Shown one piece after another: positions 1,499-12,009 of a stretch of 12,314 bases of DNA. This DNA is from Burkholderiales bacterium. Its GTDB lineage: Bacteria > Pseudomonadota > Gammaproteobacteria > Burkholderiales > Burkholderiaceae_C. A program made the translations under genes and the position numbers. The notes under the pieces are model-generated. The model worked only from the letters and a program-made list of their open reading frames with translations. It did no database searches and had not been told where the DNA came from. The DNA is taken from NCBI GenBank assembly GCA_947474415.1, contig CANJKD010000018.1, positions 1 through 12,314 of the forward strand, in the 5' to 3' direction. Each line of letters starts with the position of its first letter. Position 1 is the stretch's first letter.

Positions 1499-1753
1499 GC
1501 CCAGTTCCCCGTCTTCATTGAAACCCTTCGCACCGAACCCCGACCCGCCACGCGCCGGCGGGTGGCCCGCGCTGCAGCCGCTCGCACCCTGCCGCAAGCC
1601 GTTGGCATTGAAGCTGACCAAAAATGACAGGTCCGGGCGGCGCGAGGCGAGCCGGAGGTCGGTGGCCAACGTGTCAAGTATCGGCGGATCCCGCAAGGCG
1701 GTGCTGCGGGCAGCGCAGGCAACGTGCCCGCCCCGGTCGAACACCGCGTCGCG
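1499..1753. other. Gap between lpdA and lapD without a confident gene
   Basis: This 255-nt stretch separates the lpdA stop (TAG, 1754-1756) from the lapD ATG. On the minus strand the frame shared by both genes has no stop codon across the whole gap and uses mostly G/C-ending codons, with GTG at 1744 as a possible initiator. I do not recognise the translation. Two short inverted repeats are present: CCCGCA/TGCGGG at 1690-1710 and ACCCGCC/GGCGGGT at 1543-1563. Neither is followed by a T run in the direction of transcription, so neither is a convincing terminator. A TTGACA-like hexamer on the minus strand lies near 1677, but I see no matching -10 box. The stretch could hold the lapD promoter, a dispersed intergenic repeat or a gene remnant. 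Confidence 0.5.
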
Positions 1754-3568
1754 CTACTTCCTGACCGGCGGCAGGTCGGTGCACACCCCTTCGAAGGCCT
1801 CGGCCGCCAGACCAATGCTCTCGCCCAGCGTCGGGTGCGGATGGATGGTCTTGCCGATGTCGACCGCGTCCGCGCCCATCTCGATCGCCAGCGCGATCTC
1901 GCCGATCATGTCGCCCGCGTGCGTACCGACGATGCCGCCGCCGACGATGGCGTGCGTGTCTGCGTCGAACAGCAGCTTGGTGAAACCTTCGTCGCGCCCG
2001 TTCGCGATCGCGCGGCCCGAGGCGCTCCACGGGAACAGGCCCTTCCTGACCCTCATGCCGTTCGCCTTGGCCTCGTCTTCCGTCACGCCGACCCACGCCA
2101 CTTCGGGGTCGGTGTAGGCCACGCTCGGGATCACGCGCGCATCGAAGGCCGCCTTGCTGTCGCCGGCCGCCACTTCGGCGGCCACGTGGGCCTCGTGCAC
2201 CGCCTTGTGCGCCAGCATCGGCTGGCCGACGATGTCGCCGATCGCGAAGATGTGCGGCACGTTGGTGCGCATCTGGATGTCGACCGGGATGAAGCCGCGG
2301 TCGGTGACCGTGACGCCCGCCTTGTCGGCACCGATGCGCTTGCCGTTCGGCACGCGGCCCACAGCCTGCAGCACGAGGTCGTAGACCTGTTCCTTGAGCT
2401 GGCCTGCGGTTCCGTCAACCGATTCGAACTTCACCAGAATGCCGTCCTTGGTGGCCTCGGCACCGACCGTCTTCGTCTTCAGCATGATGTTGTCGAAGCG
2501 CGGCGCGTTCATCTTTTGCCACACCTTCACCAGGTCGCGGTCTGCCCCCTGCATCAGGCCGTCGAGCATCTCCACCACATCGAGCCGCGCCCCCAGCACG
2601 GAGTACACCGTGCCCATCTCCAGGCCGATGATGCCGCCGCCGATGATCAGCATGCGCTTCGGGTTCTGGCGCAGTTCCAGCGCACCGGTGGAGGTGACGA
2701 CGCGCGGGTCGTCCGTCGGCAGGAAAGGCAGCTTCACGGCTTCGGAACCGGCGGCGATGACGGCCTGTTTGAACTTCACCGTCTGCTTGCCTCCCTTGGC
2801 CAAGGCGATGCCGAGGTGGAACGGGTCGAGGAACTCGGCCGTGCCGTGCACCACCGTGACCTTGCGCATCTTCGCCATCGCAGCCAGACCGCCGGTCAGC
2901 TTGCCGATGACCTTTTCCTTGTGCGTGCGCAGCTTGGCCAGGTCGAGCACGGGCGGCGCGAAGGTGACGCCCATCGCGTCGAAGTGCTTCACTTCGTCCA
3001 TCACCGCCGCCACGTGCAGCAAGGCCTTCGACGGGATGCAACCCACGTTCAGGCACACGCCGCCGAGGGTGGCGAAGCGTTCCACCAGCACGACCTTCAG
3101 CCCCAAGTCGGCCGCGCGGAACGCGGCGGAATAGCCGCCAGGGCCGGCGCCGAGCACGACGAGGTCACATTCGACATCAGCGCCGCCGGCGTAGCTCGAC
3201 GCGATGGCGGCGGTGGCTCCCCCCTCACCTCGGCCCTCTTCCGCCGGCGCGGGAGAGGGAGCAGGAAGCGGCGATTCACTCCCTCGCCCGATTGCGGGAG
3301 AGGGTTGGGGTGAGCGTACTGCCGCCGCACCCTGCACCTCCAGCGAAAGAATGACCGACCCGTGGTTGACCACGTCACCGACCTTGAGCTTCACTTCCTT
3401 CACCACGCCGGCACGCGACGAAGGGATCTCCATCGAAGCCTTGTCGCTCTCCACGGAAATCAGGCTTTGTTCGGGCTTCACGGTATCGCCGGCCTTGACG
3501 AGCAGTTCGATGACGGCCACGTCCTTGAAGTCGCCGATGTCCGGAACCTTGATGTCGATGAGGGCCAT
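1754..3568 (-). CDS. lpdA: Dihydrolipoyl dehydrogenase (E3) with N-terminal lipoyl domain
   Basis: This is the FAD-dependent E3 subunit that reoxidises dihydrolipoyl groups of the pyruvate dehydrogenase complex and passes electrons to NAD+. Residues 1-80 form a lipoyl domain with the lipoylated lysine K43 in ESDKASME. A low-complexity linker follows (about 81-132). The E3 core then has the FAD motif GAGPGGY (140-146), the redox disulfide C172/C177 in GGVCLNVGCIPSK, the NAD motif IIGGGIIG (308-315) and the catalytic H578/E583 pair near the C-terminus. The 604-residue length exceeds the roughly 475 of E3 alone because of the lipoyl domain and linker; E3 proteins with a lipoyl domain are known from Neisseria and Ralstonia. 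Translation starts 2 nt after the upstream stop (TGA-GC-ATG), with GAAAGG as likely ribosome site, so it is probably coupled to the BPH gene. Residues 85-117 are encoded by a repeat-like insertion. Confidence 0.96.
   Translation of the reverse strand: MALIDIKVPDIGDFKDVAVIELLVKAGDTVKPEQSLISVESDKASMEIPSSRAGVVKEVKLKVGDVVNHGSVILSLEVQGAAAVRSPQPSPAIGRGSESPLPAPSPAPAEEGRGEGGATAAIASSYAGGADVECDLVVLGAGPGGYSAAFRAADLGLKVVLVERFATLGGVCLNVGCIPSKALLHVAAVMDEVKHFDAMGVTFAPPVLDLAKLRTHKEKVIGKLTGGLAAMAKMRKVTVVHGTAEFLDPFHLGIALAKGGKQTVKFKQAVIAAGSEAVKLPFLPTDDPRVVTSTGALELRQNPKRMLIIGGGIIGLEMGTVYSVLGARLDVVEMLDGLMQGADRDLVKVWQKMNAPRFDNIMLKTKTVGAEATKDGILVKFESVDGTAGQLKEQVYDLVLQAVGRVPNGKRIGADKAGVTVTDRGFIPVDIQMRTNVPHIFAIGDIVGQPMLAHKAVHEAHVAAEVAAGDSKAAFDARVIPSVAYTDPEVAWVGVTEDEAKANGMRVRKGLFPWSASGRAIANGRDEGFTKLLFDADTHAIVGGGIVGTHAGDMIGEIALAIEMGADAVDIGKTIHPHPTLGESIGLAAEAFEGVCTDLPPVRK
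3218..3316. repeat. Palindromic intergenic-type repeat inside the lpdA coding sequence
   Basis: The stretch contains CCCTCTTCCGC (3235-3245) facing GCGGGAGAGGG (3248-3258), an 11-bp stem with one G-T mismatch. A second, poorer copy lies at 3281-3304 (CCCTCGCCCG facing GCGGGAGAGGG). The outer ends also mirror each other, with CTCACC at 3224-3229 and GGTGAG at 3309-3314. Such CCCTCTCCC/GGGAGAGGG hairpins with flanking CTCACCCC are typical of dispersed repeats between genes in many proteobacteria. Here the insertion keeps the reading frame and encodes residues 85-117 of Lpd, rich in Pro, Ser, Gly and Glu. Assignment to a dispersed family is inference; the palindromic structure is seen directly. 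Confidence 0.7.
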
Positions 3569-3570
3569 GC

Positions 3571-4152
3571 TCAGCCTTTCACTACGTTGAGTTTGATGGT
3601 GTGGGCGTGAATCGGCCCACTGGAGTTCTTGTCGAATTCGCAGCCCGAGCGCACCCCCAGCTCCGCCAGTTCGCGCGCCGTCTTCAACTTGTCGAAGCCG
3701 GCGTACATTGCACCGAGCGCGAACGCGCGGCCGGTGCCGACGGCCCAGAAGCGGTCGAACTCGAAGACCTCGCGGTACGAGTACACACCGAAGATGCCGG
3801 CATGGTTCGCGATCAGCGCAGTGAACTGCGAGCTCTCGTACGGGTCGGCGTCTTCTTCCTTGGTGTTCAGGAAGAAGGTCTCCTTGAGCTTCGGGTGCAG
3901 CTTCAGGAAGGTCTCGAAAACCTGGTCGCGCGAGTGCAGGCGCAATTCGCCCGGCGGCAGGCTGTCGAGCGCGCGGCGCAGCACCGGGAAGTGCGCCGTG
4001 GTGCCGGCCATGCCGATCCAGCTGTCGCCGACCTTGAAGAGCTTCTCATTGGCCTCGTAGCCATGCGCCAGCCGCGTGTCACCGAAGGTGACGAGTGTGT
4101 CGGCGGCAATCGCGACTGTCCCGTTTTTTCGCACCACCACGACCGTGGTCAT
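3571..4152 (-). CDS. Proteasome beta-type threonine peptidase, BPH family (HslV-like)
   Basis: The 193-residue product is an N-terminal-nucleophile hydrolase of the proteasome/HslV fold. It begins MTTVVVVRKNGTVAIAADT, so Met removal would expose Thr2 as nucleophile without a propeptide. Asp18 and Lys37 sit where the catalytic Asp17 and Lys33 of HslV and proteasome beta subunits lie, and AVGTGRAFALGAMYAG (137-152) resembles the GSGGPYA region of HslV. It is longer than HslV (about 175 residues), diverges strongly after residue 20 and has no hslU neighbour. It therefore fits better with BPH, the betaproteobacterial proteasome homologue reported to form a double-ring particle. The start is 3 nt after the aceF stop and its stop is 2 nt before lpdA, so it is embedded in the pdh operon. 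Its substrates and any ATPase partner cannot be read from the sequence. Confidence 0.85.
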   Translation of the reverse strand: MTTVVVVRKNGTVAIAADTLVTFGDTRLAHGYEANEKLFKVGDSWIGMAGTTAHFPVLRRALDSLPPGELRLHSRDQVFETFLKLHPKLKETFFLNTKEEDADPYESSQFTALIANHAGIFGVYSYREVFEFDRFWAVGTGRAFALGAMYAGFDKLKTARELAELGVRSGCEFDKNSSGPIHAHTIKLNVVKG

Positions 4153-4155
4153 GGC

Positions 4156-5781
4156 CTACAGGAGCACGTGGCGGAAGTCACCCAGGATCTGGCCGAGGTA
4201 CGCATTGAAGCGCGCCGCCGCGGCGCCGTCGATCACGCGGTGGTCCCAGCTCAGGCTGAGCGGCAGCATCAGGCGCGGCTGGAACGCACCGCCATTCAAA
4301 TTCGCGTCCCACACCGGTTCCATGCTGCTCTTGCAAACGCCGAGGATGGCCACTTCGGGCGCGTTGATGATCGGCGTGAAGTAGCGCCCACCAATGCCGC
4401 CCAGCGACGAGATCGAGAAGCAGCCGCCGCTCATCTCGGCCGGGCTCAGCTTGCCGTCGCGGGCTTTCTTGGCCAGTTCGCCCATCTCTTGCGAGATTTG
4501 GAAGATGCCCTTCTTGTCGGCGTCCTTGATCACAGGGACCATCAGGCCGTTCGGCGTGTCGGCCGCGAAGCCGATGTGGAAGTACTGCTTGAAGACAATC
4601 TGGTCGCCGTCGATCGACGCGTTGAACTCGGGGAACTTCTTCAGCGCCGCCATGCAGGCCTTGATCAGGAAGGCGAGCATCGTGACTTTGATGCCGGCTG
4701 CGCCTGGCCGTTCGTTCTCCTTGTTCGTGGAGACACGGAAGGCTTCGAGGTCGGTGATGTCGGCGTCGTCGTGGTTCGTGACGTGCGGGATCAACACCCA
4801 GTTGCGGTGCAGGTTCGCGCCGCTGATCTTCTTGATGCGCGACATGCCCTTGCGCTCGACCGGGCCGAACTTCGAGAAGTCGACCTTCGGCCAGGCCAGC
4901 AGGCCGGGAAACGTGCCCCCGCTCGCAGCGGCGTCGGGCGCCTTGGCCGCTTGCGCTCTGGTTTGCGTTGCGCCAGCCATCACACTCTTGACGAAGCCCT
5001 GCACGTCGGCCTGAGTAATGCGGGCTTTCGGACCGCTGCCGTTCAATTCGCCCAGCGGCACGCCAAGCTCGCGGGCGAGCTTGCGGATCTTCGGCGAAGC
5101 GTGCGGCAACATGCCCTTGGGCGCGCTCGGTTCGTGGGCGGGCAAAGCGGCCGTCGGCAGCGCCTTTGCGACGGCTGTTGCGGGTACTGGCGCAGGCACC
5201 GACGCCACCGCGGCCCCCGGCGCCGAAGCGGCGGCAGCCGCAGGCGCTGCTGCGGAAGCGCCGCTGGCCTGAACGACCGCGACGAGGCTGCCCTTCCTGA
5301 CCTTGTCGCCGACCTTGACCTTCACCTCGATCACGGCGCCGGCATGCGACGACGGAATCTCCATCGAGGCCTTGTCGCTCTCGACCGTGATCAGGCTCTG
5401 CTCGACCTGGATGGTGTCGCCGACCTTGACCATGACCTCGATCACGGTGACTTCATCGAAGTCTCCGATGTCGGGGACCAGCACGTCGACGGGTGCGCCA
5501 CCAGCCTCACTTGCAGTGCGCGTTGCGGCTAGCAAGCCGGAACCTTCCACCTCGATCATCAACACCAGCGACCCTTCGGCCACCTTGTCGCCAACCTTGA
5601 CCTTCAACTCCTTCACCACGCCGGCATGCGACGACGGGATCTCCATCGAGGCCTTGTCGCTCTCCACCGTGATCAGCGATTGCTCGGCCTTCACCGTGTC
5701 GCCGGGCTTCACCAGCAGTTCGATGATTTCCACTTCCTTGAAGTCGCCGATGTCCGGGACCTTGACTTCCAGCAGTGCCAT
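4156..5781 (-). CDS. aceF: Pyruvate dehydrogenase E2, dihydrolipoyl acetyltransferase
   Basis: This is the E2 core of the pyruvate dehydrogenase complex, which transfers acetyl groups from lipoyl arms to CoA. The 541-residue protein has two lipoyl domains (about 1-80 and 97-172) with lysines K43 and K137 in identical ESDKASMEIPSSHAG contexts. An Ala/Pro-rich swinging linker (about 173-222), a peripheral subunit-binding domain (about 226-265, SPKIRKLARELGV) and the catalytic domain (about 300-541) follow. The catalytic domain has the active-site DHRVIDG motif (H514, D518) and ends in VLL, typical of E2 core packing. E. coli AceF has three lipoyl domains; two is common in betaproteobacteria. 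I chose ATG at 5781 because MALLEVKVPDIG is the standard N-terminus and GGAGA lies 8 nt upstream. The frame stays open for 24 codons further upstream to a GTG at 5853. Confidence 0.97.
   Translation of the reverse strand: MALLEVKVPDIGDFKEVEIIELLVKPGDTVKAEQSLITVESDKASMEIPSSHAGVVKELKVKVGDKVAEGSLVLMIEVEGSGLLAATRTASEAGGAPVDVLVPDIGDFDEVTVIEVMVKVGDTIQVEQSLITVESDKASMEIPSSHAGAVIEVKVKVGDKVRKGSLVAVVQASGASAAAPAAAAASAPGAAVASVPAPVPATAVAKALPTAALPAHEPSAPKGMLPHASPKIRKLARELGVPLGELNGSGPKARITQADVQGFVKSVMAGATQTRAQAAKAPDAAASGGTFPGLLAWPKVDFSKFGPVERKGMSRIKKISGANLHRNWVLIPHVTNHDDADITDLEAFRVSTNKENERPGAAGIKVTMLAFLIKACMAALKKFPEFNASIDGDQIVFKQYFHIGFAADTPNGLMVPVIKDADKKGIFQISQEMGELAKKARDGKLSPAEMSGGCFSISSLGGIGGRYFTPIINAPEVAILGVCKSSMEPVWDANLNGGAFQPRLMLPLSLSWDHRVIDGAAAARFNAYLGQILGDFRHVLL
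5337..5404 (-). repeat. Direct repeat, lipoyl-domain core, copy in second AceF lipoyl domain
   Basis: These 68 bp match 5619-5686 at 62 of 68 positions by eye, exactly 94 codons apart. They encode the region around the lipoylated lysine of the second lipoyl domain. A more diverged copy lies in lpdA at 3406-3473. The repeat reflects domain duplication, perhaps maintained by gene conversion. Confidence 0.9.
5619..5686 (-). repeat. Direct repeat, lipoyl-domain core, copy in first AceF lipoyl domain
   Basis: This is the partner of the copy at 5337-5404, differing at six positions, four of them clustered at one end. It encodes the K43 lipoylation site region of the first AceF lipoyl domain. Confidence 0.9.
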
Positions 5782-5819
5782 TTTCTTTGTCTCCGTGTTC
5801 GTTCTCGGGCGCGCGCTGT

Positions 5820-5865
5820 TGAGGAAACGCACCGCCGCCCGAAGTTTCCTCACCCTCCTTCGGGC
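5820..5865 (-). promoter_or_regulatory. Two interleaved inverted repeats (possible RNA pseudoknot) in the aceE-aceF gap
   Basis: Within the 122-nt gap, and read as mRNA, GCCCGAAG (5865-5858) can pair with CTTCGGGC (5844-5837), and TGAGGAAAC (5852-5844) can pair with GTTTCCTCA (5828-5820). Both stems are perfect (8 and 9 bp). The arms interleave in the order A, B, A', B', sharing base 5844, which is the arrangement of an H-type pseudoknot or of two mutually exclusive hairpins. The connecting loops are 5 nt (GAGGG) and 8 nt (GGCGGTGC). A consensus Shine-Dalgarno sequence AAGGAGG (5860-5854) lies across the first stem and loop, about 70 nt before the aceF start. No T run follows, so this is not an obvious terminator. 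Regulatory function is inference; a mobile intergenic repeat is an alternative. Confidence 0.5.
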
Positions 5866-5903
5866 TCGGACGACGTATGTTGTCGGCCCGGGGGCGCCAT
5901 TTT

Positions 5904-8636
5904 CTAAGCGTACAGCGGGTTGATCTTGTCGACGTTGATGCCGTACTTCGCGAGCGCCTCGGCCACCTTGGCCATCGGCACCGTGCCTTCATCGGCCAGC
6001 GCCTTCAGCGCCGCCACCACGATGTAGTGCCGGTTCACCTCGAAGTGCTCGCGCAGCTTGCTGCGGAAGTCGCTGCGGCCAAAGCCGTCGGTGCCGAGCA
6101 CGCGGTAGGTGCGGCCCTTCGGAATGAAGGCGCGGATCTGCTCGGCATAGTTCTTCATGTAGTCGGTCGACGCGATCACCGGGCCGGCGTACTTGTCGAG
6201 CTGCGCGGTGACGAAGGCCACGCGCTGCGATTCGTCGGTCGGGTGCAGCAGGTTCCAGCGGTCGGCGTCCTGGCCGTCGCGTGCGAGCTGGTTGAAGCTC
6301 GGGCAGCTCCACACGTTCGCCGCCACGGCCCAGTCGGCTTCCAGCAATTTCTTGGCAGCGACGCTCTCCAGCAGGATGCTGCCGCTGCCGAGCAGGTTCA
6401 CACGCGGCGCGGTGCCGGAGGCGCCCTTCGGGCTCGGCGCCGCGCCTTCGTCGAGCAGGTACATGCCTTTGATGATCTGCGCCTCGGTGCCGGACCTGAG
6501 GCCTGGCATCGGGTAGTTCTCGTTCAGCAGCGTAATGTAGAAATACACGTTCTCCTGGTCTTCGACCATGCGCTTCAAGCCGTGGTGCAGGATCACGCCC
6601 ACCTCATGTGCGAAGGTCGGGTCGTAGCTGATGCAGTTCGGGATCGTGCTGGCCAGGATGTGGCTGTGGCCGTCTTCGTGCTGCAGGCCTTCGCCGTTCA
6701 GCGTGGTGCGCCCAGAGGTGCCGCCGAGCAGGAAGCCGCGTGCCTGCATGTCGCCCGCAGCCCAGGCCAGGTCACCGACACGCTGGAAGCCGAACATCGA
6801 GTAGTAGACGAAGAACGGAATCATGATCCGGTTGTTCGTGCTGTAGCTCGTGGCCGCCGCGATCCAGCTGCTCATGCCGCCGGGTTCGTTGATGCCTTCC
6901 TGCAAGACCTGGCCGGCCTTGTCTTCGCGGTAGTACATCACCTGGTCCTTGTCGACCGGCGTGTAGTTTTGCCCTGCGGGGTTGTAGATGCCGATCTGGC
7001 GGAACAGGCCCTCCATGCCGAAGGTGCGGGCCTCGTCGACCAGGATCGGCACGGCGCGCGGGCCCAGTTCCTTGTCGCGCAACAGTTGCGTCAGGAAGCG
7101 CACGAAGGCCTGCGTGGTCGAGATCTCGCGGCCCTCCGCCGTGGCGTCGAGCACGGCCTTGAAGGTGTCGATTGGCGGCACGGCGAGCTTCTCGTCGGCC
7201 TTGGTGCGGCGGTGCGGCAGGTAGCCCCCAAGTGCCCGGCGCTTCTCGTGCAGGTACTTCATCTCCGGCGTGTCGTCGGCCGGCTTCAGGAACGGGATGT
7301 CGTGCAACTGGTCGTCGGGGATCGGGATGTTGAAACGGTCGCGGAAGATCTTCACGTCTTCGTCGATCAGCTTCTTGGTCTGGTGCGCGGTGTTCTTGCC
7401 CTCGCCGCTCTTGCCCATGCCGTAGCCCTTGACGGTCTTGATCAACAACACGGTGGGCTGGCCCACATGGTTGTTCGCCTTGTGGAAGGCGGCATACACC
7501 TTCTGCGGGTCGTGGCCGCCGCGGTTCAGGCGCCAGATGTCGTCGTCGCTCATCTTCGCAACCATCTCCAGCAGCTTCGGGTGCTGGCCGAAGAAGTGCT
7601 TGCGAACGAAGGCGCCGTCGTTCGCCTTCATGGCCTGGTAGTCGCCGTCGACAGTGTCCATCATCACCTTGCGCAGGATCTCGTCCTTGTCGCGCGCCAG
7701 CAGCGGGTCCCAGTAGCTGCCCCAGAGCAGCTTGATGACGTTCCAGCCCGAGCCGCGGAACTCCCCCTCCAGTTCCTGGATGATCTTGCCGTTGCCGCGC
7801 ACCGGGCCATCGAGGCGCTGCAGGTTGCAATTGACGACGAAGATCAGGTTGTCGAGCTTTTCGCGCGCCGCCATGCCGATGGCGCCGAGCGATTCGGGCT
7901 CGTCCATTTCGCCGTCGCCGCAAAACACCCAGACCTTGCGATTCGCGGTGTCGGCGATGCCACGTGCGTGCAGGTACTTGAGAAAGCGCGCCTGGTAGAT
8001 GGCCATCAGCGGGCCCAGGCCCATCGAGACGGTGGGGAACTGCCAGAACTCGGGCATCAGCTTCGGGTGCGGGTAGCTGGAAATTCCCTTGCCATCGACC
8101 TCTTGCCGGAAGTTCAGCATCTGCTCTTCGCTGATGCGGCCTTCCATGAAGGCGCGGGCGTAGACGCCGGGTGAAGAGTGGCCCTGGAAGTAGAGCAGGT
8201 CGCCGCCATGGCCTTCGCACTCGGCGTGCCAGAAGTGGTTGAAGCCCGTACCGAACATCGTGGCCAGCGAGGCAAAGCTGGAGATGTGGCCGCCCAGGTC
8301 ACCGCCGTCGACCGGGTGCAGGCGATTCGCCTTGACGACCATCGCCATCGCGTTCCACCGCATATAGGTGCGCAGCCGTTCCTCGATCTCGATGTTGCCT
8401 GGAGAGCGCTCTTCCTGGTCGGCAGGAATGGTGTTCACGTAGGCCGTATTGGCCGAGAACGGCACGTCGATACCGGCCTGGCGCGCATGGTCGATCAGGC
8501 TCTCGAGCAGGAAGTGGGCGCGGTCACCGCCCTCCGCACCAATGACGGCAGACAGGGCGTCGAGCCACTCGCGGGTTTCGGTCGAGTCGATGTCGTTCGC
8601 CGAAGCGCCGAGGAATGAATCAGGCATGTCTGACAT
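5904..8636 (-). CDS. aceE: Pyruvate dehydrogenase E1, homodimeric type
   Basis: This thiamine diphosphate enzyme decarboxylates pyruvate and acetylates the lipoyl arms of AceF. The 910-residue protein fits the single-chain E1 family (E. coli AceE is 887). Visible landmarks are HISSFAS (117-123), the HAECEGHGGDLLYFQGHSSPG stretch region (137-157), the thiamine-diphosphate/Mg motif starting GDGEMDEPE (240-248) and ending NCN (269-271), and the C-terminal transketolase-like half with NEPGGMSSWIAAATSYS. A short Gly/Ala/Pro/Ser insertion before VNLLGSGSI makes this copy slightly longer than the E. coli enzyme. Starts at 8636 (MSDMPDSF) and 8627 are both possible. I chose 8636 because AGGAGA lies 5 nt upstream. 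It is the first gene of the operon, and the divergent region upstream carries candidate control sites. Confidence 0.97.
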   Translation of the reverse strand: MSDMPDSFLGASANDIDSTETREWLDALSAVIGAEGGDRAHFLLESLIDHARQAGIDVPFSANTAYVNTIPADQEERSPGNIEIEERLRTYMRWNAMAMVVKANRLHPVDGGDLGGHISSFASLATMFGTGFNHFWHAECEGHGGDLLYFQGHSSPGVYARAFMEGRISEEQMLNFRQEVDGKGISSYPHPKLMPEFWQFPTVSMGLGPLMAIYQARFLKYLHARGIADTANRKVWVFCGDGEMDEPESLGAIGMAAREKLDNLIFVVNCNLQRLDGPVRGNGKIIQELEGEFRGSGWNVIKLLWGSYWDPLLARDKDEILRKVMMDTVDGDYQAMKANDGAFVRKHFFGQHPKLLEMVAKMSDDDIWRLNRGGHDPQKVYAAFHKANNHVGQPTVLLIKTVKGYGMGKSGEGKNTAHQTKKLIDEDVKIFRDRFNIPIPDDQLHDIPFLKPADDTPEMKYLHEKRRALGGYLPHRRTKADEKLAVPPIDTFKAVLDATAEGREISTTQAFVRFLTQLLRDKELGPRAVPILVDEARTFGMEGLFRQIGIYNPAGQNYTPVDKDQVMYYREDKAGQVLQEGINEPGGMSSWIAAATSYSTNNRIMIPFFVYYSMFGFQRVGDLAWAAGDMQARGFLLGGTSGRTTLNGEGLQHEDGHSHILASTIPNCISYDPTFAHEVGVILHHGLKRMVEDQENVYFYITLLNENYPMPGLRSGTEAQIIKGMYLLDEGAAPSPKGASGTAPRVNLLGSGSILLESVAAKKLLEADWAVAANVWSCPSFNQLARDGQDADRWNLLHPTDESQRVAFVTAQLDKYAGPVIASTDYMKNYAEQIRAFIPKGRTYRVLGTDGFGRSDFRSKLREHFEVNRHYIVVAALKALADEGTVPMAKVAEALAKYGINVDKINPLYA

Positions 8637-8641
8637 GCTTG

Positions 8642-8647
8642 TCTCCT
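8642..8647 (-). promoter_or_regulatory. Ribosome binding site of aceE
   Basis: AGGAGA on the minus strand lies 5 nt before ATG 8636. This spacing favours the 8636 start over the in-frame ATG at 8627. The aceF site GGAGACAA has a similar sequence. Confidence 0.75.
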
Positions 8648-8685
8648 GTCATGAATCTGGGGTTTTCTTGAGGCCGGCAGGAGTG

Positions 8686-8719
8686 TCGCACAACTGGAAT
8701 TGTTTTCCAAATTGTGCGA
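8686..8719. promoter_or_regulatory. 34-bp inverted repeat, candidate operator between aceE and the histidine kinase
   Basis: TCGCACAA (8686-8693) is mirrored perfectly by TTGTGCGA (8712-8719), separated by 18 bp. The spacer carries a second, nearly concentric inverted repeat TGGAA (8695-8699) / TTCCA (8705-8709). The site lies in an AT-rich island in otherwise GC-rich DNA, about 50-80 bp upstream of aceE and directly before a TATAAT hexamer on the plus strand. It is a good candidate for a dimeric regulator site controlling the pdh operon. It does not match the PdhR consensus of E. coli well, so the regulator is unknown. Confidence 0.5.
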
Positions 8720-8729
8720 AGTGATTTTG

Positions 8730-8735
8730 TATAAT
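8730..8735 (+). promoter_or_regulatory. Perfect TATAAT hexamer, candidate -10 element
   Basis: TATAAT on the plus strand lies 11 bp beyond the inverted repeat, preceded by TTTTG. No good -35 hexamer is found at 16-18 bp. It points toward the histidine kinase gene 110 bp away. The complementary strand reads ATTATAC and might serve aceE instead. This is a weak call because one hexamer in an AT-rich island can arise by chance. Confidence 0.3.
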
Positions 8736-8833
8736 GGAATTTCATTGCGACTTTGCTCACCGTGCGGCGCAATTCTTAACGCTCGCACTGCTTCAACACG
8801 AGCCAGCTCGGACCCGCCGGCGGGCGCTGCATC

Positions 8834-8839
8834 GATAAT
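8834..8839 (+). promoter_or_regulatory. Candidate -10 element for a leaderless histidine kinase mRNA
   Basis: GATAAT ends 6 nt before the A of the histidine kinase ATG at 8846. That is the normal distance from a -10 box to a transcription start, so transcription could begin at the start codon itself. No Shine-Dalgarno sequence precedes the ATG, which agrees with a leaderless message. The -35 region (about 8811-8816) is poor; a 12-bp palindrome CCCGCCGGCGGG lies there at 8813-8824. Confidence 0.4.
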
Positions 8840-8845
8840 CCCGCG

Positions 8846-11389
8846 ATGCACCCTTCCCCCGACGCCGCCCCGCAGCCGCGCCCCCCGAAGAACTGGCCCG
8901 AACGACGTTTCGGGCACTGGTGGCGGCGCCAGTCGGCGGCACGCCAGGACCGCTTCGCCACGCTCGGCCCGCTGGTGTCCGTGTTGCTTTTTCTGGCTGC
9001 CATCATCTTGGCGTTCTGGTATCTGCGCAATGAGGAATTCGAGCGCGAACAAGAGGCCGTCAAGCGCGACACCGAAGTCGCCCAACTGCAGATCCGTTTG
9101 CGCCTGGTCGAGAACCAGGAACAGCTGATCCGCATTGCCCGCGAAATTGCCACGCGCGCCATCGACCGTGGCCAGTTCCTGGCCCAGGCCGCCACCTTCA
9201 CCCGCGAGCGGCCGGAAATCACCAACCTGGTGTGGATCGATGGCGCGCACACGCCAAAGGCCAGCTATTCGGCGACCAGCTTCCCGCCCGACGCCGGCGT
9301 GTCGAGCGACGACACGCCCGCCGCACTGCCGCGCGAGGGCAGCGGCAACGCTTCCGAGGCCGCTTTCATCGCGTCCCGCACCCAACGACAACCGGTCTAT
9401 TCCAGGCAGTTCCTCGACGCCTTCGGCAACCCGGTGTTCCAGCTCCAGGTGCCGCTGCTCGAACACGCCGGTTTCGTCGGCGCGCTGATCGCCGAGTACT
9501 CGATCGAAGGCCTGATGCGCCGCAATGTTCCGAAGGAAATTGCAGCGCGCCACGCCATGAGCGTGCTCGACGCCGACGAGCGCATCGTCGCCAGCACGGT
9601 GACGCAGATGCCGGGGGCGACGGTTCAGCGCCCGACTATCGTCCACCAGATCCCCGTCACGCCGGCGAACAACGGTCTGATCCTGCGCGGCCAGGGCTAC
9701 CGCACCTCGATCAGCCTGATCAGCAACACGCTGTTCTGGATGGTGGCCGCGCTGTCGGCGCTGACGGTCTGGATGCTGCTCGGCACCTGGCGCCACATGG
9801 GGCGGCGCGTGCAGATGCAGAGCGCGCTGGTGACCGAAACGAACTTCCGCCGCGCCATGGAGAACTCGATGCTGACCGGCATGCGGACCATGGACATGGA
9901 AGGCCGTATCACCTATGTCAACCCGGCCTTCGGCGCAATGACCGGCTTCTCCGAGGCCGAACTGGTGGGCCGCAAGCCACCGTTCCCCCACTGGCCTCCC
10001 GACCGCTTCGACGAAAACGCCCGCCTGCTGCAGCAGGAATTGCAGGGCCGCAGCCCGGTCGGCGGCATCGAGGTGAAGGTGATGCGCAAGGACGGCTCGC
10101 TGTTCGATTCGCGCATGTACGTGTCGCCGCTGATCGACTCGAAGGGCCAGCAGACGGGCTGGATGACGTCGATGACGAACATCACCGAAGCGAAGCGCAT
10201 CCGTGACCAGCTTTCGGCCTCGCACGAGCGCTTCACGACCGTGCTTGAAGGGCTGGACGCCGCCGTTTCGGTGCTGTCGGTGAACCAGGGCGAACTGCTG
10301 TTCGCGAACCGCTCGTACCGCCTCTGGTTCGGTGCCGAATCGCAAGGCCATGCGCAGCTCGCTGGGGCCGACAAGGGCATGCCCTACCTGGCCGAGATCG
10401 ACGATGCGGTCGACAACTTCGGCGGCCTGCCGACGCAGGAGTTGACCGAGGCCGGCTCCGAGTCGCGCGAGGTGTTCATCGAGTCGCTGTCGAAGTGGTT
10501 CGACGTGCGCGCACGCTACCTGCAATGGACCGACGGCCGCTTGGCGCAGATGCTGATCGCCACCGACATCACCGCGCGCCGCAACGCCGAAACGCTGGCG
10601 GCCAGCCAGGCCGAGAAGGCCCAAGTGACCAGCCGTCTCGTGACGATGGGCGAGATGGCCTCGTCGGTGGCGCACGAGCTGAACCAGCCGCTGACCGCCA
10701 TCACGAACTACTGCAACGGCATGGTCACGCGCGTCAACAACAACGCGATCGAGAAGGCCGACCTGATCGCCGCTTTAGAGAAAACCTCGCGCCAGGCGCA
10801 GCGCGCGGGCCAGGTCATCCACCGCATCCGCACATTCGTGAAGCGCAGCGAACCGCAGCGCCAGGCCGCGCAGGCGAGCGAAATCGTCGACGACGCGGTC
10901 GAACTCGCCGGCATCGAACTTCGGCGCCGCAACGTCGCCATTCGCACCTATGTGGCGAAACGCCTGCCGACGCTGCAGGTCGACCCGATCCTGATCGAAC
11001 AGGTGGTGCTGAACCTGTTGAAGAACGCGGCGGAAGCGATCGACAACGCGCACCTGCCGCCAGCGCGGCGCAACATCGAGTTGCGCGTGGTGCCGCACCA
11101 CACACCCGAAGACGGCGGCATGATCGAGTTCAGCGTCACCGACATGGGCCCCGGCCTTCAGCCCGAAGTGATTACGCGCCTGTACGAGGCCTTCTTCTCG
11201 ACCAAGGTCGATGGCCTGGGCATCGGCCTGAGCCTGTGCCGCTCCATCATCGAGAGCCACCGCGGGCGTATCAAAGCGCGGAACCTCTACAATAGAGAAG
11301 TGGTCGTGGGCTGCCGTTTTTCATTCACGCTGCCCGTCAAAGTCTCGGCCACAGACCCTGCCACACCCAAGGCGTTTGTGACCCTATGA
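8846..11389 (+). CDS. Membrane sensor histidine kinase with two PAS domains
   Basis: This is an 847-residue sensor kinase. The N-terminus is cytoplasmic and basic. Membrane segments at about 40-61 and 291-313 enclose a periplasmic sensing region of about 230 residues. Two PAS domains follow (about 332-450, with GRITYVNPAFGAMTGFSEAELVG, split here as GRITYVNPAF and GAMTGFSEAE; and about 459-578). The dimerisation domain has the phospho-accepting H610 in SVAHELNQPL, of the FixL/DctB type. The ATPase domain shows the N box NLLKNAAEA (723-731), DMGPG (766-770) and GLGIGLS (790-796). The stop overlaps the next start as ATGA, so it is coupled to the response regulator. It is divergent from aceE across 209 bp, which suggests, but does not prove, that it senses a signal relevant to pyruvate metabolism. 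The ligand is unknown. The start at 8846 has no ribosome site. Confidence 0.93.
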   Translation: MHPSPDAAPQPRPPKNWPERRFGHWWRRQSAARQDRFATLGPLVSVLLFLAAIILAFWYLRNEEFEREQEAVKRDTEVAQLQIRLRLVENQEQLIRIAREIATRAIDRGQFLAQAATFTRERPEITNLVWIDGAHTPKASYSATSFPPDAGVSSDDTPAALPREGSGNASEAAFIASRTQRQPVYSRQFLDAFGNPVFQLQVPLLEHAGFVGALIAEYSIEGLMRRNVPKEIAARHAMSVLDADERIVASTVTQMPGATVQRPTIVHQIPVTPANNGLILRGQGYRTSISLISNTLFWMVAALSALTVWMLLGTWRHMGRRVQMQSALVTETNFRRAMENSMLTGMRTMDMEGRITYVNPAFGAMTGFSEAELVGRKPPFPHWPPDRFDENARLLQQELQGRSPVGGIEVKVMRKDGSLFDSRMYVSPLIDSKGQQTGWMTSMTNITEAKRIRDQLSASHERFTTVLEGLDAAVSVLSVNQGELLFANRSYRLWFGAESQGHAQLAGADKGMPYLAEIDDAVDNFGGLPTQELTEAGSESREVFIESLSKWFDVRARYLQWTDGRLAQMLIATDITARRNAETLAASQAEKAQVTSRLVTMGEMASSVAHELNQPLTAITNYCNGMVTRVNNNAIEKADLIAALEKTSRQAQRAGQVIHRIRTFVKRSEPQRQAAQASEIVDDAVELAGIELRRRNVAIRTYVAKRLPTLQVDPILIEQVVLNLLKNAAEAIDNAHLPPARRNIELRVVPHHTPEDGGMIEFSVTDMGPGLQPEVITRLYEAFFSTKVDGLGIGLSLCRSIIESHRGRIKARNLYNREVVVGCRFSFTLPVKVSATDPATPKAFVTL

Positions 11390-12009
11390 GCTTGATTCCA
11401 AAGAAGGGCACCGTCTACGTCGTCGACGACGATGAGGCTGTGCGTGACTCCTTGCAGTGGTTGCTGGAGGGCAAGGACTACCGCGTGAAGTGCTTCGATT
11501 CCGCCGAATCGTTTCTCTCGCGCTTCGACCCCCGCGAGGTGGCATGCCTGATCGCCGACATCCGCATGGACGGCATGAGCGGGCTGGAACTGCAAGACCG
11601 TCTGCTGGAACGCCGCTCGCCCTTGCCCGTGACCTTCATCACCGGCCATGGCGACGTGCCGATGGCCGTGACGACGATGAAAAAAGGCGCTGAAGACTTC
11701 ATCGAAAAGCCCTTCAAGGAAGACGAGCTGGTGCGCTTGGTCGAAAAGATGCTCGACCGCGCCCGCATCGATTTCTCCAGGCATCAGGAAGCCGCCAGCC
11801 GCGACGCGCTGTTGTCGCGCCTGACCACCCGTGAGGCGCAGGTACTGGAACGCATCGTCGCCGGCCGGCTGAACAAGCAGATCGCCGACGACCTCGGCAT
11901 CAGCATCAAGACGGTGGAAGCGCACCGCGCCAACATCATGGAAAAGCTCAACGCCAACACCGTCGCCGACCTGCTGAAGATCGCCCTGGGCGCTACAGCC
12001 AAGGCCTGA
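11386..12009 (+). CDS. FixJ/LuxR-type response regulator
   Basis: The 207-residue protein has a receiver domain (about 8-125) with the acidic cluster VVDDDE (12-17), phospho-accepting D58 in IADIRMDG, T86 and K108 in the KPF motif. A LuxR-type helix-turn-helix follows (about 143-203, LTTREAQVLERIVAGRLNKQ onward, with ISIKTVEAHR at 172-181). The architecture is that of FixJ, the usual partner of FixL/DctB-like kinases. It overlaps the kinase gene by 4 bp (ATGA) and has no strong ribosome site of its own, so it is probably translated by coupling. It is expected to bind DNA as a phosphorylated dimer. The inverted repeat in front of aceE is a possible target, by position only. Confidence 0.95.
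   Translation: MSLIPKKGTVYVVDDDEAVRDSLQWLLEGKDYRVKCFDSAESFLSRFDPREVACLIADIRMDGMSGLELQDRLLERRSPLPVTFITGHGDVPMAVTTMKKGAEDFIEKPFKEDELVRLVEKMLDRARIDFSRHQEAASRDALLSRLTTREAQVLERIVAGRLNKQIADDLGISIKTVEAHRANIMEKLNANTVADLLKIALGATAKA

Follow-up and report, generated by a model that had tools for sequence, protein, structure and literature searches.

The β-proteobacterial proteasome homolog (BPH) is a peptidase with a solved structure, and to our knowledge it has no known substrate or partner, unfoldases included. The family was described by Fuchs et al. (PMC5777263), and the accessible text of that article presents BPH as a tetradecameric closed double ring resembling HslV. The protein of Cupriavidus metallidurans (Cm-BPH) reacts with epoxomicin and MG132, and that of Thiobacillus denitrificans (Td-BPH) with epoxomicin; BPH was inert in the standard peptide and casein assays reported there. 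Three genomic neighborhoods are distinguished in the same text, namely argG, the pyruvate dehydrogenase complex (PDC) and Hsp33, so that the location of a BPH gene inside a PDC operon is already in print. The words Hsp15, HslR and YajQ are absent from the article. A literature search revealed no other apparent functional study of BPH; the family is also named in PMC8138137 and PMC6213913.

The analyzed window is a 12,314-nt stretch of a Burkholderiales genome (GCA_947474415.1, contig CANJKD010000018.1). It contains the minus-strand gene order aceE-aceF-bph-lpdA, with the following features:

5904..8636, minus strand: aceE (E1), upstream of aceF.
4156..5781, minus strand: aceF (E2), encoding two lipoyl domains, an E3-binding domain and an acyltransferase domain; stop codon at 4158-4156.
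Open frame of aceF, minus strand: begins at GTG 5853; the ATG at 5781 (MALLEVKVPDIG) is probably the start.
4153..4155, minus strand: aceF-bph junction of 3 nt; inspection by eye found no clear Shine-Dalgarno sequence ahead of the bph ATG.
3571..4152, minus strand: bph, a 193-aa BPH-family Thr peptidase (PF00227); ATG at 4152-4150, TGA at 3573-3571.
3829..3867, minus strand: acidic pore-loop segment NTKEEDADPYESS, BPH residues 96-108; the pore-loop assignment follows the accessible text of PMC5777263.
3569..3570, minus strand: bph-lpdA junction of 2 nt; AAAGG, seen by eye, lies 6 nt ahead of the lpdA ATG, within the end of bph.
1754..3568, minus strand: lpdA (E3), dihydrolipoyl dehydrogenase with an N-terminal lipoyl domain; ATG at 3568-3566.

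Sequence comparison confirms the bph product as a BPH ortholog. Its best match in PDB is Cm-BPH (5OVU; E-value 2.6e-74, 252 bits, residues 2-191), followed at a distance by Td-BPH (5OVS; 1.5e-34, 123 bits), whereas an HslV (1m4y) is matched with an E-value of 2.8e-4 and 24 bits. PF00227 also matches the product (E-value 9.7e-8), which scores under the NCBIfam cut-off for archaeal proteasomes. By PDB and profile scores, the solved BPHs are therefore closer to it than HslV or proteasome beta subunits, and the earlier assignment to the proteasome/HslV fold, and to BPH in particular, is borne out by the 5OVU, 5OVS and PF00227 matches. That the gene encodes HslV itself is ruled out by these scores and by the presence in the source genome of a second HslV-family match and of HslU, the latter on another contig. 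Named relatives with BPHs 80-90% identical to this one belong to Rhizobacter, other Sphaerotilaceae and other Burkholderiales.

The residues Thr2, Asp18 and Lys37, numbered from Met1 and put forward as the catalytic set in the preliminary description of this DNA, align with Thr1, Asp17 and Lys37 of Td-BPH, whose catalytic roles are described in PMC5777263 (accessible text); together with Gly50 they are the counterparts of the catalytic set given there. The Thr directly follows the start Met, with no propeptide, and removal of Met1, which was shown for Cm-BPH in the same article, is expected to expose it. Among the 210 BPH genomes classified below, residue 2 is Thr in 208 and Ser in two, position 18 is Asp in 207 and Glu in three, and Lys37 and Gly50 are invariant. 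With residues this close to invariant, the match of Thr2, Asp18 and Lys37 is not a chance one. Two BPHs of the order start with Met-Ser (genomes G046, locus L024, and G184, locus L230), and G184 has a second BPH copy; the accessible text of PMC5777263 places Ser-1 BPHs outside β-proteobacteria. Ser-139 of Td-BPH, named there among the active-site features, corresponds to Thr140 in the window. The equivalent residue is Ser in 74 and Thr in 14 of the 88 PDC-linked BPHs, and Thr or Ala occupies it in 23 of all 210, so we do not treat it as defining for the family. The net acidic charge of the pore loop is 4-5 in 88/88 PDC-linked BPHs. Rough pairwise NG86 estimates of dN/dS, which have wide ranges (2037 pairs with dS of 0.1-1.5 from 71 genomes), have medians of 0.285 (BPH), 0.275 (Lpd) and 0.209 (catalytic part of AceF) and indicate that BPH is under purifying selection where it is present.

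The gaps of 3 nt to aceF and 2 nt to lpdA, with all three genes on one strand, are as previously described, the strand being minus. From such tight junctions we infer that expression of bph is likely coupled to that of E2 and E3, as had been proposed, and bph is likely co-expressed with the PDC genes. As no clear Shine-Dalgarno sequence precedes the bph ATG, re-initiation after aceF is likely. A 4-nt overlap joins aceF to bph in 19 of 88 genomes and bph to lpd in 20 of 87. In a simple scan for consensus matches, positions 1600-9000 yielded no sigma-70-like promoter, and the minus strand from aceF to lpdA yielded no terminator-like site.

Beyond the operon, at 8846-12009, the plus strand encodes a PAS histidine kinase together with a FixJ-like response regulator, divergently from aceE. 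The description of AccSR/BphPQ systems near ace genes of β-proteobacteria in PMC6456745 (accessible text) suggests that this pair probably belongs to such a system. The pair was found in 55 of the 58 named BPH-containing loci with enough upstream sequence, the three misses being Oxalobacteraceae, and in 20/20 BPH-less genomes of the family that were checked. Downstream of lpdA, at 2-1744 on the minus strand, lies part of a LapD-like GGDEF-type receptor of c-di-GMP (under the LapD cut-off at 256.6 bits).

Of the 399 genomes drawn across the order, 143 contain BPH, as do 74 of the 299 genomes drawn from the family of the window, the remaining 225 of which have no match. These two draws and additional relatives gave 218 BPH-positive genomes, of which 210 were classified by context, a pool that over-represents the window's family: 88 BPHs are PDC-linked, 65 are hslO/Hsp15-like, 43 are arg/yajQ-linked and 14 are found elsewhere. 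The second class comprises BPH genes lying upstream of hslO (Hsp33) or of an Hsp15-like S4 gene, within 1 kb and on the same strand; neighbor identities were checked on one representative each, and the Hsp15-like representative scores below its NCBIfam cut-off. Eight genomes were left out of the context counts (G599, G612, G493 (fragments), G195, G189, G209, G100 and G263), as was the second copy of G184, at C158. All 76 classified BPHs of the window's family lie between aceF and lpdA, and in family f21 the PDC-linked loci number 19 of 20 further ones, or 21 of 22 with two earlier loci. In the order draw, where five of the 143 BPH genomes were left unclassified, only 16 of 138 are PDC-linked. 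This tally, 76/76 across the family and 16/138 across the order, is new in this analysis. A tabulation of BPH homologs between aceF and lpdA had been suggested as a check on a tie to the PDC; the expected position held throughout the window's family and failed in the order draw, where homologs mostly lie elsewhere (122/138), the outcome that the preliminary description itself had named as speaking against the tie. Catalytic residues are nearly unchanged across the neighborhoods of the 210 classified genomes.

In the best-sampled careful tree of BPH, to which 12 more genus representatives of f21 were added from 20 new loci and in which the bootstrap is not fully settled, 59 PDC-linked rows and G727 form one clade (100/98). 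Locus L230 was removed from the careful trees for its long branch. In thinner trees a single PDC clade is less certain: it was recovered in 50% of bootstraps of a careful tree that included fewer sequences of f21, and on a quick tree the grouping of f21 with Hsp33-linked BPHs was not rejected by an AU test (p 0.81) and, when imposed as a constraint, gave the higher likelihood. An independent PDC insertion in f21 was considered and is rejected on the tree with denser f21 sampling by the single clade (100/98), subject to its not fully settled bootstrap. The arg-linked BPHs form one clade (99/100). Hsp33/Hsp15-linked BPHs are scattered in several places around the PDC and arg clades, a pattern compatible with an older setting among stress genes, but the tree is rooted insecurely on a very long HslV branch. 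As PDC linkage forms one clade on the best-sampled tree, the large family count probably represents one event, and the linkage looks like a single old insertion, inherited and often lost. G727 carries an intact 192-aa BPH of the PDC clade (locus L389, 1483-2061, minus strand), with no aceF or lpd match in its 3.4-kb locus.

Genomes of the family that lack BPH show an unchanged operon order. In all 55 examined BPH-less genomes of the family (of 225; a non-random set, mostly the best-ranked by Lpd similarity to the window among the matches listed), aceF adjoins lpdA, with a gap of at most 32 nt in 51 of them; the longest gap, 389 nt, is in L361 (G483). BPH is dispensable to the PDC. On a tree built from E2/E3 of 137 genomes, of which 84 have BPH and 53 lack it, the junction switches between having and lacking bph about 25 times, with at least 11 of the switches on starred branches; the changes may include regains as well as losses, which this tree does not separate. 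The tree is noisy, as the poor distance correlations of E2 indicate (r 0.25 for E2-E3 and 0.28 for E2-BPH, compared with 0.58 for BPH-E3). A link between E2/E3 architecture and BPH was rejected: among loci with enough sequence, two lipoyl domains in E2 are found in 35/38 with BPH and 32/39 without. Related species with and without BPH at the same junction represent natural test pairs.

The operon position invites the explanation that BPH is dedicated to quality control of the PDC, degrading unassembled, oxidized or mis-lipoylated E1, E2 or E3. Without help from an unfoldase, its chamber would perhaps thread the flexible E2 linkers, and the operon would match the amount of BPH to that of its clients. 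The constant position in the window's family (76/76), the short junctions, some with 4-nt overlaps, and the oxidative-stress link via PDC carbonylation proposed by Fuchs et al. (PMC5777263) agree with this explanation. The accessible text of the same article, however, reports pull-downs without PDC subunits or HslU (in one species, as "data not shown") and carbonylated-protein patterns that were the same regardless of BPH, and thus the predicted physical association of BPH with the PDC has one negative published test. In addition, the linkage traces to one clade, the aceF-lpdA junction is kept in every examined BPH-less genome, the BPH of G727 is intact outside a PDC operon, and most BPHs of the order are encoded elsewhere. 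On these grounds, and given the similar lipoyl architecture with and without BPH, the earlier proposal that the particle acts on, or is assembled with, the PDC is unsupported, and dedicated quality control appears doubtful. A narrower version is distinctly unlikely: in the PDC-linked clade, BPH would have turned into a client-specific chamber that degrades PDC subunits without an unfoldase and is entered via the flexible E2 linkers. If true, a central metabolic operon would contain its own dedicated protease. With the PDC as its client, BPH would clearly exemplify a compartmental protease devoted to a single metabolic complex. The census narrows this idea: the linkage looks like one event, and genomes often lack BPH yet keep the operon order.

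Two further explanations concern the activity of the particle. BPH could be a highly specific processing or ligation enzyme similar to connectase, with one or few substrates, which would account for its inertness on standard peptides and casein while its active site reacts with epoxomicin (PMC5777263). Connectase, according to the accessible text of PMC8665760, uses the same fold as a specific ligase, and the catalytic residues of BPH are nearly invariant; but connectase is monomeric in contrast to the closed, HslV-like double ring of BPH (PMC5777263), and we see no candidate substrate shared by the different BPH neighborhoods. Such an enzyme is improbable. Alternatively, BPH could serve as a second peptidase for HslU or another resident AAA+ unfoldase. 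HslU is encoded in the source genome, and HslV scores above cut-off in 127 of 143 BPH genomes versus 159 of 256 without BPH (Fisher p 4e-9, from a cross-table made by eye from two listings and with kinship ignored). In contrast, 16 of the 143 BPH genomes have no HslV above cut-off, and according to the accessible text of PMC5777263 the residues for contact with HslU lack conservation and the pull-down did not recover HslU; we consider this partnership highly improbable. A role of BPH as a substitute for HslV is rejected, both being present in 127 of the 143 genomes.

We favor, with a probability of about 0.6, an ATPase-independent peptidase of general or stress proteostasis that is co-expressed with the PDC through operon history. 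As in the solved relatives (PMC5777263, accessible text), BPH would assemble into a closed double ring that encloses the active sites; removal of Met1 would leave Thr1 as the nucleophile, activated by Lys and Asp as published there, and the acidic pore loop would line the cavity. With no unfoldase partner known, BPH most likely takes up, independently of ATP, chains that have already lost their fold or been damaged. An ancestor of several β-proteobacterial families would have gained bph once, between aceF and lpdA, and this single acquisition would explain its place in the PDC operon, where it would be transcribed with the PDC genes and probably translated by coupling. In this way a general or stress proteostasis chamber, and not a PDC-dedicated protease, would be expressed steadily and in step with growth. 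The BPH-PDC linkage is real, old and stable, but given a probable single event, catalytic residues that are kept in other neighborhoods and an operon order unchanged without BPH, linkage alone does not point to the PDC as client. Against the favored reading, retention in 76/76 loci of the family and 21/22 of f21 could reflect selection for the place in the operon. Both the substrates and the lack of PDC dedication are what we infer, and since BPH has no known substrate, general proteostasis is likewise a guess.

Compared with known systems, the product is most distant from HslV (ClpQ), with which it shares the fold and the Thr nucleophile. The sequence match is weak, 25 bits against the NCBIfam HslV cut-off of 157.75. 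The HslV gene usually lies beside hslU, whereas bph adjoins aceF and lpdA in the window, with hslU on another contig. Td-BPH (5OVS/5OVT) belongs to the same family and has the same catalytic residues; it is more distant than Cm-BPH, its gene lies in an arg operon and not in a PDC operon (PMC5777263, accessible text), and its Ser139 is replaced by Thr in the product described here. The closest described system is BPH of C. metallidurans (Rmet_1198, 5OVU), which shares with the window the catalytic residues, the acidic loop and the PDC operon context (PMC5777263, accessible text).
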